From: Psychrobacter sp. WY6
GTDB taxonomy: Bacteria; Pseudomonadota; Gammaproteobacteria; Pseudomonadales; Moraxellaceae
Direction: 5' to 3'
Assembly (NCBI RefSeq): GCF_018448495.1
Contig: NZ_CP049902.1
Coordinates: 1,736,001 to 1,800,000 of the forward strand
Length of the DNA stretch: 64,000 nucleotides
Shown: one piece after another, positions 45,969-63,828 of the stretch
Position numbering within the stretch: the stretch's first letter is position 1
Layout: each line of letters starts with the position of its first letter
Translations under genes and position numbers: made by a program
Notes under the pieces: generated by a model
The model's input: only the letters and a program-made list of their open reading frames with translations
The model's database searches: none
Told to the model about the DNA's origin: nothing

Positions 45969-47743
45969 CTAATTGGTCAAAATCGCCGCATCAGTCTCGT
46001 CTAGTTTATCTTGTATCAATGGATTGGACTCAATGACTTGTACTGGCAAGTAGCGTAGCTGTAGCTTAATGGGTAAATATTCAGGGAAATTCTCTGCCAT
46101 ATCTTGAGTGATGACGGTTTCGATTTGCCGTACATCGTATGAAGTAGGCGTCGTCTCTCCGCGAATGACCGCACGTACGACCTTATTTTCTTCTGAAGTA
46201 TCAAACTGAGTATTGGTCAGTACGTTGCCTTTGTCGATAAAGTAGCTATTGATAGCTTCTTTGACGCTACTCTCAAAAACCTGTTGTTTGGCATTGGTCT
46301 GTAGATTGATGGACAAATACGTCCCTAAGCCACCTAACAATAATAACGTCACCGCATTACGGCGTAAAAAGGTCAAATAGGTGCTGGATTTATAATCATC
46401 ATCGACCAAACGGCGAAAGCCTAATAACCAAAGTACTAAAGCATTGGTAAACTGGATAGCAATAATATTGGTTAGTGCCAGTAGCAGTGCCCCAAGTCCA
46501 AGCTGCGTCTCGCCATTGGCGAATAATATCCCACTCGCGGCAAGAGGTGGCACCAATGCAGTGGCTACCGCCACGCCGACCACTGCCACAGATAGGTGCG
46601 GTGAAACCATCGCATAAGCACCAGCAGTACCACCCGCTAGAGCAATCATTAAATCCATCGAGGTTGGCTGAGTGCGCGATAATATCTCTGCGGTCAGTGG
46701 CTGATCTTTGTGTAACCAGCCGACGATAAAACCAACCAATACCACTAAGGACACACCAACGATAACCGTAATCAGTGATTTACGTAGCAATGGCATACGA
46801 TGATCAATAATCGCTAACGCTATGCCAGTAATGGGACCTAACATCATGGCAACCAACATGGCGCCAATGACGACGGCAGCTGAATTGGTCACTAACCCAT
46901 AACTGGCGATGATGGCAGAAAGTATAATAATGAAATACATTTTGCTAGGCAGCGCGTTGGCCTCGATTCTGACCCGTACTTCTGGATAGTCTACCTTTTG
47001 ATTGCTAAATTGCTCGGCAACAAATTGCTTATAAGACTCCAATTTAGCTTCTTTTTTTCTTTAATCTCGTCTTCTAGTTCTTCCTGATTATCGACTTTAT
47101 CTTTCACAGTACTTTTTACGATAGTGTCATTATTTTTCGGTGTGTCTGGCTGTTTATCAATTGAGGACGGTTTTGTGTTGTCACTATTTGCTTTGCTTTC
47201 TTGCTGAGGGTTATCAGAGATAGGATAAGTGCTCTGTGCATCAGCGGGTGCAATATCCTCTGCCTCTACCGTTATCTCAGCATCAGCGTCAGCATCTTTT
47301 TGAGAATTTTGCTCTGAAGCGTTATCTTCTTCTTGAGCATGTTCTGCTGATGCATTTTCTAGATTTTTATGATTGGGCGCTGTTGTGGATTTTAACGATT
47401 CATTGGATAGTGGTGTCTCAGGCTCAGTGATTTCAAGTTTAGTTATTTCAGACTCATTGTTGGGCTTGGCGGTTTCTAACGTTGCTACTACCTCGTCAGC
47501 ACCAATGGACTTTATCGCTATCGTTGTTTCAGGAGGCTGTGCACAAGCCATATCCTCGCCACAGTCATTGTCATCATGAGTCTCTGAGCTTTTTGAAGGC
47601 TCAGTATGTTCGACAGTGCTATCTAGTACAGAGCTACCATCTGCGTCAGTTAGCGCCGCTTTTTTGTCTGGATGATTGGCTGTGCTTGAAGCATCTTTTA
47701 TAACTGAAGAATCATTAGAGAGTTCGTTTTCAGATGAGGTCAT
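45969..47743 (-). pseudogene. DUF389 (TIGR00341-like) membrane protein with acidic N-terminus, frameshifted by one A
   Basis: Multi-spanning inner-membrane protein of unknown function. The C-terminal part (from 47042 down) has about six helices with the DUF389 signatures SAAVVIGAMLVAMMLGPITGIALAI, AGGTAGAYAMVSPHLSVAVVGVAVATALVPPLAASGI and LALTNIIAIQFTNALVLWLLGFRR. Its only apparent start is TTG. The upstream 47743-46991 frame is a very acidic, Ser/Thr/Asp-rich region ending KEKKKLNWSLI. Adding one A to the A7 run near 47052 fuses them (KEKKEAKLESYKQFVAEQF) into about 591 residues. I therefore read one protein, start ATG 47743 (MTSSENELSND). Confidence 0.78.
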
Positions 47744-56834: not shown

Positions 56835-57212
56835 GGGGATGTTCTGGCTTCGACGCTGGTAATGAAACTCAATGATGCATGTCGAGAGTATATGTCCTCT
56901 CGTTAATCAAACATATATTGTTATAGTCGCAAACGACGAAAATTACGCTCTAGCAGCTTAAACCCTGTTTACATGGTTTAAACCTGTTTACTTAGTTGCT
57001 GATCACCTACAGTTGGTCAACTAAGTTGAAGCGTCCGCATGTAGGCTCGCCACAAGTGATTGTCTCAATCGCTTGGGTTCAAAAGTAGAGAATCGTCCAA
57101 TCCATCCTGACTGTCGGATCGGTGCGGATTAAATCTAAAGACAGAAACTAAACATGTAGATTCATGAGCGTAATGCTGGCGGACGCGGGTTCAACTCCCG
57201 CCATCTCCACCA
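56835..57212 (+). ncRNA. ssrA: Transfer-messenger RNA (tmRNA)
   Basis: Rescues stalled ribosomes and tags the truncated products. The 5' end GGGGATGTTCTGGCTTCGACG and the 3' end GGTTCAACTCCCGCCATCTCCACCA form the tRNA-like domain; the T-arm GGGTTCAACTCCC is intact and CCA is encoded. The tag reading frame (56929-56961) gives ANDENYALAA and a stop, typical of Moraxellaceae. Length 378 bases. The 3' end is the likely integration site of the neighbouring prophage, which would leave the gene functional by supplying an identical 3' sequence. Confidence 0.96.
57195..57212. other. Putative prophage attachment core at the 3' end of ssrA
   Basis: The prophage integrase reads toward the tmRNA 3' end, a common target of tyrosine integrases. 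The att core probably lies within the terminal T-arm/acceptor sequence. The second copy (attR) is outside the window, so exact ends are inferred only. Confidence 0.5.
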
Positions 57213-57611: not shown

Positions 57612-58768
57612 TCACTCTATATTTAACTTCGATATCTCAAGTTTGTTCTGATCACCATGCAGCCAACGTCCATATCGCTTAATTAGCATCTGCAAGCTAT
57701 GGCCCAATTGGTTGGCAACGAATACCGGATTCACATCTGACATTAATAACATTGTGGCATAGGTGTGCCTAGCATTATATGCTGGGCGATGTCTCACCCT
57801 CGTAGATTGCATTGCTTCAATCAAGCGCATTCGGGCAGGCTTTTCATTGTAGAACGGCTCATTCGTTTCTGGACATATCATCACATAGTCATCACTCAGC
57901 TTCATAGCGTCCAGTGCTTCAAATGCACGCTTCGAGCGGTCATTCAAATATACTTCACGTGCTGTATGAGTTTTAGTGACTTGTTTCTCAACGCCGCGCA
58001 CACGGCTTTTATTGATGATCACTGAGCCGTTGAACCAGTCAATATCTTTCCATCTTAGAGCATTCAGCTCACTAGGACGACACCCTGTCCAAAAGGCCAC
58101 TTCAAAATACCAATAATAAAAATGGTCTTTATCTGTCAAATTCTTATCTAACCAATTTAGTAATGCATTCATTTCAGCGCGGGTAAATGGGTCGGGTAGT
58201 CCTGACTGTACTTTTTTATTCTTAATCATGGCCATGGGGTTTTCTGCAGGCGTGATTAATCGCAGCTCAATGGCTTTATCAAAGACACCGCGTAGTGGTA
58301 CCAGGCAATTATTAAAGGTCTTGTCAGATTTAAAGTTAATGTCAGATATGATGTCACGTATTAGATCAGAGACGTTATTTCGTGAATGGGTATCAGTGCC
58401 ATTTCAGGCATCCAGTGCTTGTTCAATGCACTCACGTAGTCTTTTTTGGAGTCAGTATTGGCTTCACAGTGCTTCAGATACTTTTGGGCGATTTCTTGGA
58501 ATAGGGCGCCATCACCGACGATAACGCTATCATCATTAACCATTTCGCCTTTAGCGCTGGCGAGGTCTGCTTCTGTGAGCACACCCCATTCAGCCTTTGT
58601 GATTAGGTCGCGTCTAATTTTAGCAGCTGCCTTGATGCCTTCCGCAGTGACTGGGTGCGGGAGCGTGACGTGATAGGACTTACCGTCTCGTCTAAAGTAG
58701 ATCTGGATACGCCCCGATCTAAGCCGGACGCCCTCCGGTAACGTTGCTCTGCTTGCTGAGTCATCCAT
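57612..58768 (-). pseudogene. int: Phage tyrosine integrase, frameshifted by one base
   Basis: Site-specific recombinase for integration at ssrA. N-terminal arm-binding region LPEGVRLRSGRIQIYFRRDGKSYHVTL and SAM-like core-binding domain (FQEIAQKYLKHCEANTDSKKDY). A missing A near 58368 makes the frame end at HEITSLI; corrected it continues INVSDLIRDIISDINFKSDKTFNNCLVPLRGVFDKAIELRLI. The catalytic domain has Arg in TGCRPSELNALRW, RH in YNARHTYATMLL, GH in NQLGHSLQMLIKRYGRW and the nucleophile Tyr near the end. Corrected length is 385 residues, normal for the family. Confidence 0.9.
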
Positions 58769-61696: not shown

Positions 61697-61738
61697 ATAA
61701 TAACCATAGTTATAATTACTGTCAATAACTAAAGTAAT
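61697..61738 (-). promoter_or_regulatory. Predicted PL promoter with two repressor operators
   Basis: Minus strand: TTGACA (61725-61720), 17-base spacer, TATTAT (61702-61697). ATAACCATAGTTAT (61700-61713) fills the -10/spacer and ATAACTAAAGTAAT (61725-61738) overlaps the -35. Both resemble the palindromes beside the repressor gene. Confidence 0.72.
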
Positions 61739-61821
61739 TAAATATATAAATATTTATTACTTTGGCTCTTTTATAACCACTATAAAACTGTAAGTAATTG
61801 TTAAAATGAAATATGAGGCAT

Positions 61822-61848
61822 AAAAAAACCGCCCATATAGGACGGTTA
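61822..61848 (-). terminator. Terminator of the repressor operon
   Basis: On the minus strand CCGTCC / GGGCGG (one G-U pair) with loop TATAT, followed by a T7 run. It closes the repressor, HIRAN and Cas2-like unit before the PL promoter. Confidence 0.82.
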
Positions 61849-61876
61849 TTAGAGTCTAAGAAGGAGATTTTATGAT

Positions 61877-62146
61877 TTAGTTTTTTAGCCAGTCGGTAGC
61901 GCCTTTTTGGACGTTATATGAGTGCCAATTATCTACATCTACTTTTATGACAAACAAAATATCATCATGATCAATGTAATTTAACAAAAAATCTCTAACT
62001 TGCTCAGACGTCTTTTCAGAATGTATTATCCACTGAGATGCTGTTGGTTTAGCCCAAGCGTCATTAGAAATATTTTTAATACCACGCGCTATCTTTTCAT
62101 AGTCTCTGTTCCTAACTAAATCATAAGTTATAGAGTAAAAAGCCAT
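61877..62146 (-). CDS. Cas2/SinR-like small protein
   Basis: 89 residues: MAFYSITYDLVRNRDYEKIARGIKNISNDAWAKPTASQWIIHSEKTSEQVRDFLLNYIDHDDILFVIKVDVDNWHSYNV. The start 'Y.itYDL...rdY..i...ik', the SQWII strand and the 'l.ny.d.dD.l.vi.v' end match the SinR-like branch of the Cas2/VapD ferredoxin-like superfamily. The Asp after the first strand (YDL) corresponds to the Cas2 metal site. There is no cas1 or CRISPR array, so this is a stand-alone member of unknown function. It lies in the lysogeny-expressed operon 63 bases after the HIRAN gene. Confidence 0.65.
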   Translation of the reverse strand: MAFYSITYDLVRNRDYEKIARGIKNISNDAWAKPTASQWIIHSEKTSEQVRDFLLNYIDHDDILFVIKVDVDNWHSYNVQKGATDWLKN

Positions 62147-62209
62147 TTTCTCACCTCATGCTGTCGCCAGTCTCAAGCGCGCTGGCACGGACGCTTATTA
62201 TCCTTAGCC

Positions 62210-62706
62210 TTAAAAGACTATTGAGAAAACAAAAATCAATATTATCGCGCCTACGACAATCGTTGTCATCGATATTTTTTGTTTAGGGCTTTCCGGAATT
62301 GGTGGTGGTGTAGGTTGGCTCGGCGTATCGTTATATTTTTTTAAACTTTGCGAAGATCCAGCTAAGTCCTCCAGATTTAAATCAACCCAAGCACCGTACA
62401 TAGGATGATCTCCTCTATATATCTTACATCTTACAGACAGAGTATCTCTATTGCCTTCGCATAGGTGGCGATAACGAATAGCATCTTGCTTGGATAAATA
62501 CCCTAATACCCCATGAGCAGAAACAACAGCTACTGCATTTTTGTCGTAAGGGTTATTTGGCTCATATACTAATTCGACATCAACAAAAGCGGATGCGCCT
62601 TTCTTAAAAGAATTAGGGTCTTTGTAGTTTTGTCTAAAGCGGGTTGGTAGTTCGATTCACCCACAATTGGGGTGTTGAACTCATACCCAAAATGCCAGTC
62701 CGTCAT
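62210..62706 (-). pseudogene. HIRAN-domain protein with C-terminal membrane anchor, frameshifted by one T
   Basis: Start MTDWHFGYEFNTPIVGESNYQPA; the printed frame then fails. One T restored near 62637 (GCTTTAGACAAAAC) gives FRQNYKDPNSFKKGASAFVDVELVYEPNNPYDKNAVAVVSAHGVLGYLSKQDAIRYRHL, a classic HIRAN pattern (vGE..y, EPnNPyDknAVaV, GyL). It continues into MYGAWVDLNLEDLAGSSQSL, a Pro-rich linker (PSQPTPPPIPESP) and one transmembrane helix (MTTIVVGAIILIFVFSIVF). Corrected length is 165 residues. It starts 16 bases after the repressor stop, so it should be expressed in lysogens. Confidence 0.7.
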
Positions 62707-62722
62707 CTGCAAAATCCTTTTA

Positions 62723-63482
62723 TTAATGTTTTAAAAACGAATATCGCACCCGTCCAAATAGCGCAAACTGATTAAACGTATCACGAGTAATTAACTGATC
62801 TGGGTAGGTGTCTTTGTCAGTATTATCTGATTTTAATATCACTGTGCCATCTAGGTTTTTAATGGTGCGCTTACACATCATTTCGCCATCGGCATTAAAC
62901 ACGTAAATCTTATTATTAATAAAATTATCGTATTCGCTCTCATTGGTATTTACTAGCATTAGAGTGCCATGCGGTATGGTATTACCCATACTGTCACTAC
63001 AAGCGTGCATCAACACCAATCCATGGCCGTCGATAGGCAGGTCGTTATCTCTTAAAAACTCAACGGTAAACGCTTGGGTATGAGAATCAGGATGTTCAAG
63101 ATTGACGTACCCATTTCCACAGCTGGCTTTGATGTCCAAATATTTAATATCAACCAACCCATAGTCTGTACGACCGCCAATAATAATATGCTCTGATTTA
63201 TTGGTATTCTTTGAGTAGCCCCTGTCTTTCTCGTTAGACAACGCTGACTTAGTCACGCTTTCTATAGTGCCTTGATCAAGCATCTCTCCAATGCCGTTTG
63301 CCAGCCAATCAATATTAACCTCAAACACCTTGGCTAGCTCGCTTATAAATAGTTCGCTTGGTAAGCCCTTTCTCTATCTTGTAATAACTTGGCTGAGACA
63401 TGCCTGTGGCATCTGCTACATCTTGTTGCGACAGATTTAGCCTATCTCTAGCCAGCTTAACCCTCTCCGCTAATGTGCTCAT
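62723..63482 (-). pseudogene. cI-type phage repressor (XRE HTH + S24 peptidase), frameshifted
   Basis: Lysogeny repressor. N-terminal HTH MSTLAERVKLARDRLNLSQQDVADATGMSQPSYYKIEKGLTKRTI, then a shift near 63342 (TATTTATAAGCG) after which the frame continues SELAKVFEVNIDWLANGIGEM. C-terminal S24 domain: likely self-cleavage Cys-Gly in KASCGNGYVN, catalytic Ser in CSDSMGNTIPHGTLMLVN and Lys in MMCKRTIKN. Self-cleavage implies RecA-dependent SOS induction. GGAGG ribosome-binding site; transcribed leftward from a promoter with an operator in its spacer (autoregulation). Confidence 0.88.
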
Positions 63483-63506: not shown

Positions 63507-63535
63507 ATTCTAATAACCTAGGTTATCAATGTAAA
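63507..63535 (-). promoter_or_regulatory. Predicted PRM-like repressor promoter with operator in spacer
   Basis: Minus strand TTTACA (63535-63530), 17-base spacer, TAGAAT (63512-63507). The perfect 14-bp palindrome ATAACCTAGGTTAT (63513-63526) occupies the spacer. Confidence 0.7.
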
Positions 63536-63548
63536 ATGCCTAAAGTTA

Positions 63549-63602
63549 TTGATTTATAATAACTAAAGTTATATTATTAAGGCATAAATTACCCAAGGTA
63601 AT
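63549..63602 (+). promoter_or_regulatory. Predicted PR promoter with two operators
   Basis: TTGATT (63549-63554), 17-base spacer, TATTAT (63572-63577). ATAACTAAAGTTAT (63559-63572) fills the spacer; ATTACCCAAGGTAAT (63588-63602) lies downstream, just before the Cro-like start codon. Confidence 0.72.
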
Positions 63603-63606
63603 AAAA

Positions 63607-63828
63607 ATGAAACCTAACAACTCTTATGAAGCCTTAGTTAGCTATTTCGGGAATCAGCATAAGACGGCTAAAGCACTGGGCTGTAGCCAGCCTGGTGTAT
63701 GTAAATGGGTTCAAGGCAAAGCTAATATGTCAGCGCCACTGGCTTTAAAAGCTGAGCGGCTAACCAATGGTGAGATTAAAGCCGTAGACCTTTGCCCTGC
63801 ATTAGCCTCACTCGAAGCCACTGATTAA
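63607..63828 (+). CDS. Cro/YdaS-like phage regulator
   Basis: 73-residue helix-turn-helix protein: YEALVSYFGNQHKTAKALGCSQPGVCKWVQGKANMSAPLALKAERLTNGEIKAVDLCPAL. The 'fG.q.k.A.alG.sq..vskW..G...is...A...e..t.G.i' pattern is that of YdaS/Cro-type phage repressors. It is divergent from the S24 repressor and the first gene of the predicted PR transcript. Expected to oppose the lysogenic repressor during lytic growth. Confidence 0.85.
   Translation: MKPNNSYEALVSYFGNQHKTAKALGCSQPGVCKWVQGKANMSAPLALKAERLTNGEIKAVDLCPALASLEATD

Follow-up and report, generated by a model that had tools for sequence, protein, structure and literature searches.

What do the genes do that follow the repressor gene in a prophage of Psychrobacter sp. 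WY6, and do they work as one system? The stretch of DNA analysed here (the window) comprises 64,000 nucleotides of the source genome, G000 (G000:C1:1736001-1800000), and the lysogeny operon under study lies at window positions 61822-63482 on the minus strand. Read leftward from 63482 to 61827, it encodes a CI repressor of the S24 type, a HIRAN protein with a membrane anchor at its C-terminus (HIRAN-TM) and an 89-aa Cas2/VapD-fold protein (hereafter Cas2-like), and closes with a terminator. Profile matches and open reading frames (ORFs) bore out this gene content and order, as described in an initial annotation of the stretch. The explanation that we favour, at an even chance, is a rex-position accessory operon of a lambda-like prophage, in which CI is followed first by a tail-anchored HIRAN and then by a slot gene, these two providing parallel exclusion functions and not the subunits of one machine. 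At the level of sequence, it draws on gene order, a recurring terminator, shared operators that depend on CI type, a predicted anchor, purifying selection and an exchangeable slot.

The surroundings of the operon form, judging by their arrangement, a lambda-like immunity region with the HIRAN and slot genes in the rexAB position. The repressor (62723..63482, minus strand) has an HTH_3 domain in the piece 63482-63321 (E=1.4e-9) and, in the remainder, a Peptidase_S24 domain (E=2.1e-11), which is typical of SOS-cleaved repressors. Upstream, a Cro-like regulator is the first gene of the rightward operon (63607..63828, plus strand; PF14549 P22_Cro E=3.4e-9; PF15943 YdaS_toxin E=1.8e-9; phrog_35 repressor E=1.1e-14). 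Between cro and CI there are three copies of a 16-base operator-like sequence, AATAACYWWRGTTATW with at most two mismatches, at 63512, 63535 and 63558 (OR-like group, 63512..63573; 23-bp spacing). Two more copies, at 61699 and 61724 (OL-like pair, 61697..61739), lie past the terminator over the promoter TTGACA-17-TATTAT (61725-61697, minus strand; score 11/12) of the next leftward, integrase-side genes. Given that these CI-type operators overlap their promoter, the integrase-side genes are probably also controlled by CI, like lambda PL.

Six operator-like sites were found in the window, five in these two groups and one at 46423. The operator pattern gave 11 strand matches in the window, a number reached by none of 100 shuffles, and this control is lenient because the pattern had been derived by eye from the very sites scored. 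When 200 stretches of 211 bases were drawn at random from the window, none matched the OR sites at the level of the OL stretch. All nine loci whose CI has the same DNA-binding part share the operators between both places. Where CI is of another type, both places have a different element in common in L013 and L019 and a weakly palindromic one in L152, and no element shared between the OR-like and OL-like places was found in L153. The operator thus changes along with the repressor type.

A candidate PRM promoter, TTTACA-17-TAGAAT by consensus match only (63535-63507, minus strand), and an intrinsic terminator (61847-61827, minus strand) sit at the expected places, and the terminator recurs, by eye, in all 13 CI-HIRAN loci with downstream DNA inspected. 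Such sites show no excess over shuffles in the region (8 promoter-like sites against a mean of 8.1, and 2 terminator-like sites against 1.7). The leftward operon from PRM closed by a terminator, as initially proposed, nevertheless has more support than was claimed, given its location in an immunity region flanked by operators. The expression of its genes in the dormant prophage, which had also been proposed, we rate as likely, since they probably share an operon with CI and occupy the place that rexAB has in lambda. The rex genes of lambda are described as transcribed with cI from PRM (PMC11077077, in the part available), and with OR-like and OL-like operators on both sides, the operon is flanked like the CI-rex genes. 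The position downstream of CI, in one probable transcription unit between operators, corresponds to that of rexA/rexB, as does the presence of one DNA-binding and one membrane function. Unlike in lambda, the DNA-binding domain and the membrane anchor are here in a single protein, and the second gene encodes an exchangeable Cas2-fold protein. No Rex-named family was present among the Pfam, PHROGs and NCBIfam matches, and whether those libraries hold Rex models was not checked. As a separate observation, a gene of 69-70 aa (phrog_2719) directly after CI is common to Psychrobacter and related prophages (L095 4212-4421; L009 5687-5899).

The HIRAN protein (62210..62706, minus strand) matches PF08797 with 31.8 bits in the window against a curated cut-off of 24.7, and an intact relative, P0007, scores 30.5 bits. 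We found no NCBIfam match for it, and no HIRAN match in a phage record collection at E 1e-5. The predicted model of an intact relative (pLDDT 75) has the HIRAN domain of HLTF as its best match (Foldseek E 6.5e-4, probability 1.00), but with TM-scores of 0.26-0.45. The HIRAN domain of HLTF is a 3' end binder, and it shares with HIRAN-TM the motif PNNPYDKNA, whose two adjacent asparagines are probably N90 and N91 of HLTF. From this residue conservation, HIRAN-TM is predicted to bind 3' DNA ends; the double substitution N90A-N91A is reported to disrupt HIRAN function in HLTF (PMC11237066, excerpt). HIRAN-TM differs from HLTF in lacking a helicase, in its length of about 165 aa, in its tail anchor and in its place behind CI. 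The putative anchor comprises the last 19 residues (62213..62269, minus strand; mean hydropathy 2.77 in the window copy), and a C-terminal hydrophobic segment is present in 38 of 39 relatives, the lone exception being a 120-aa fragment. Where estimable, dN/dS for HIRAN was 0.08-0.28.

A HIRAN in a phage is not new, given phage DLP4 and other known cases. The available part of PMC6469090 lists a 102-aa HIRAN gene of DLP4 with replication and repair and assigns it no function, which differs from the protein of about 165 aa behind CI, and the function of phage HIRANs is called unclear in the part available of PMC7785012. Two further papers on Stenotrophomonas phages mention HIRAN. In the titles and abstract openings of the open-licence papers that our searches listed, we found no membrane-anchored phage HIRAN, none tail-anchored behind CI, and no description of a HIRAN/Cas2-like pair.

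The association of HIRAN with CI is constant in Psychrobacter-type loci, of which there are 11 (seven IMG/VR contigs, G066, G087 of the same genus, G006 and the window): CI lies upstream on the same strand, 17-437 bp away, in every one. CI and HIRAN are also neighbours in L172 (4 bp), L152 and L153 (10 bp) and L154 (45 bp, no transmembrane segment). The stretches around the remaining 35 distinct HIRAN ORFs gave no S24 match in a search with a repressor profile built from 17 repressors, those of the CI-HIRAN loci included; for L171, one of these 35, the profile missed a repressor-like gene that lies two genes upstream. HIRAN accompanies CI of several types, and does so even where the slot is empty. 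Seven related family genomes (L173-L179) encode a HIRAN with an N-terminal transmembrane segment and have no CI match. By eye, two of these genes (L177 4612-5190, minus strand; L178 4935-5366, plus strand) stand among apparent tail genes, shortly before a tape-measure-like long gene, and they may possibly be exclusion accessory genes.

The third gene (61877..62146, minus strand) is intact, and its initial identification as a stand-alone Cas2/SinR-like protein stands, with a match to phrog_1090 ('SinR-like / Cas2', E=3.6e-22) and a predicted ferredoxin-like fold of the Cas2/VapD kind (pLDDT 93) that best matches BPSL1038 and next Cas2. Sequence searches gave little: neither Pfam nor NCBIfam returned a match at E<=1, and a profile search of the sequences of solved structures yielded only Cas2 7mi4, at E=0.61 and below two designed proteins. 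The Cas2 assignment therefore rests on the fold, on the weak matches of relatives to Cas2 in PADLOC and on weak phrog_1090 matches of cas1-adjacent genes in G062, G085 and G093 (E 1e-7 to 5e-5). The latter are probably genuine Cas2, which links the phage phrog_1090 family to Cas2 at the sequence level. The putative catalytic aspartate, D9, at the end of strand beta-1 (E2-9 in the model), is invariant in 14 of 14 aligned sequences. The motif D(X20)SST that marks the BPSL1038 sub-family of Cas2/VapD nucleases (PMC10491678) is absent, and a lone invariant serine, S37, follows 28 residues after the aspartate, in the turn between beta2 and beta3. The protein further differs from BPSL1038 in having about 10% identity with it and in being encoded in a phage immunity region. 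Nuclease activity is predicted. Like other phrog_1090 members, the gene is an accessory of temperate phages, and it differs from them in standing inside a CI operon behind HIRAN-TM. Pairs within an allele class showed dN/dS of 0.08-0.22.

Several side observations concern relatives of this gene elsewhere. By eye, in L051, L052, L064, L065 and L066 it occupies a recurring chromosomal spot between nrdA-like and nrdB-like genes, and in L054, L055 and L056 it is directly followed by genes that look like type I restriction-modification subunits. Many of the related prophages inspected have a convergent gene of 70-76 aa after the Cas2-like gene (L095 5251-5463, minus strand, there phrog_35189).

Do the HIRAN and Cas2-like genes belong together? 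After HIRAN, the layout is a conserved linker (62147..62209, minus strand, including CAGCRCGCTTGAGACTGGCGA), a slot and the terminator. Among the 11 Psychrobacter-type loci, the slot holds an intact Cas2-like gene in eight and a truncated one in L014, where HIRAN is intact; in G087 it holds a 61-aa ORF with no Pfam or PHROGs match, and in G006 nothing. The pair thus recurs beside CI, as the initial annotation would have it, but is not fixed, HIRAN-TM standing behind CI with no adjoining Cas2-like gene in G087, G006, L152 and L153. G087 has a phrog_1090 match elsewhere (L061, G087:C299, contig positions 2923-3153, at the contig end). Compared over one set of seven loci, HIRAN proteins are 76-93% identical, and the Cas2-like proteins fall into three allele classes about 50% identical to one another; the pairwise identities are uncorrelated (rho -0.29, p 0.20, 21 non-independent pairs). 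The Cas2-like gene occurs without HIRAN in 4 of 4 phage records and 2 of 2 E. coli loci inspected and in 45 of 52 IMG/VR loci, as a phage accessory gene that is also found in the gpA-gpQ anti-phage hotspot of P2-like prophages. Independent occurrence and independent variation weaken the idea of one dedicated two-gene module, which had been suggested for this pair, and strengthen that of lysogeny-expressed exclusion genes. On this comparison, HIRAN appears to belong with CI, and the Cas2-like gene to be exchangeable cargo.

The linker also precedes the unrelated ORF in G087 and is missing from G006, with its empty slot. An RNA element in it was considered and rejected: four folded linkers had z of -1.30 to 0.23 against shuffles, with no base pair changed on both sides. 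Despite its sequence conservation, we therefore treat it as a linker or recombination boundary. The proposal that the Cas2-like gene is always preceded by one for a membrane protein also failed: of 16 related loci, nine have a 109-aa protein with a hydrophobic stretch over the threshold (1.77-1.79), five a 115-aa protein just under it (1.50) and two neither.

Under the favoured reading of a rex-position operon, CI, the tail-anchored HIRAN and the slot gene would be transcribed in the lysogen as a single operon, with OR-like operators on one side and OL-like operators on the other. HIRAN would face the cytoplasm from the inner membrane and bind free 3' DNA ends, so that DNA arriving from another phage, or ends generated on induction, would meet it there; the Cas2-like protein would be a small dimeric nuclease acting alone as a lysogenic-conversion (anti-phage) gene. 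Exclusion or lysogenic conversion from the rex position, with both genes in parallel, seems most likely, and exclusion of other phages by the lysogen is predicted. A more specific form has a rather small chance: the tail-anchored HIRAN would trap the linear DNA of a second phage on entry, by its 3' ends at the inner membrane, and the Cas2-like nuclease of the modular slot would degrade it. If such end capture occurs, the HIRANs anchored at the opposite end in the tail-like regions of L177 and L178 would be convergent versions of the same exclusion principle. A stricter scheme, in which tethered HIRAN captures incoming ends, the Cas2-like nuclease cuts and the two work only together, is improbable. 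The presumed functions would fit, and the genes are adjacent and co-directional in nine of the 11 loci, counting the truncated copy; yet each gene is found without the other, their divergences are uncorrelated, and L014 keeps an intact HIRAN beside a broken partner.

The main rival, with a low but appreciable probability, is control of induction by HIRAN: HIRAN-TM would sense DNA ends or single-stranded DNA arising from damage or replication and tune the CI/Cro switch, the Cas2-like gene being unrelated cargo. The fidelity of HIRAN to CI, across CI types and with an empty slot, agrees with this, and so does RexA, which is reported to bind DNA and bias the lambda switch (PMC11077077). Such a role needs no membrane anchoring, however, and CI already has its S24 domain. 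That the Cas2-like protein is instead a VapD-like RNase toxin, with the upstream gene or an RNA as antitoxin, has a slim chance. Cas2 is homologous to VapD, and it has been suggested that Cas2 homologues standing alone on mobile elements promote addiction (PMC3506569, excerpt); against this, there is no constant adjacent partner, the upstream gene differing between loci or CI lying directly upstream (L101, L102, L105), and in E. coli S1 the Cas2-like gene is the sole annotated gene between a dinI-family gene and a portal gene. Very unlikely, finally, is a phage Cas2 mimic that blocks host Cas1-Cas2 as a decoy in CRISPR adaptation. Cas1 matches do occur in 41 of 105 genomes of the genus (40 above the cut-off), but the Cas1-adjacent Cas2 genes of the genus match phrog_1090 only weakly, PF01867 found no cas1 in G000 to accompany the Cas2-like gene (genome 85.6% complete), and the presumed Cas1 binding is hypothetical.

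If the reading of a rex-position operon with parallel exclusion functions is correct, lambda-like immunity regions would have, in their rex position, a general slot for prophage exclusion genes. It would be filled differently here: a membrane-tethered binder of DNA ends keeps a fixed place next to CI, and an exchangeable Cas2-like gene comes after it. The place to look for such genes would then be between CI and the OL-like operators, and stand-alone 'SinR/Cas2' phage proteins, whose window member has no Pfam family, would gain a candidate role.

In the G000 assembly, one frameshift interrupts CI (between about 63345 and 63370) and another interrupts HIRAN (between about 62596 and 62632); intact copies of both occur in other genomes, and the window genes were analysed as they stand, without correction. 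The split prophage genes number six: CI, HIRAN, the integrase gene and three small ORFs. Prophage decay as their cause was rejected, and assembly indels are the likely, simpler one, because 9 of 30 chromosomal genes compared within the same window are split too. Compared with G066, excluding genes with <70% coverage or <50% identity, 12 of 33 window genes are split in all; the stretch 11822-63482 is rich in such frameshifts, so claims of gene loss from G000 need care. A tmRNA gene adjoins the split integrase gene (56835-57212 and 57612-58768), and the prophage may be integrated at ssrA.
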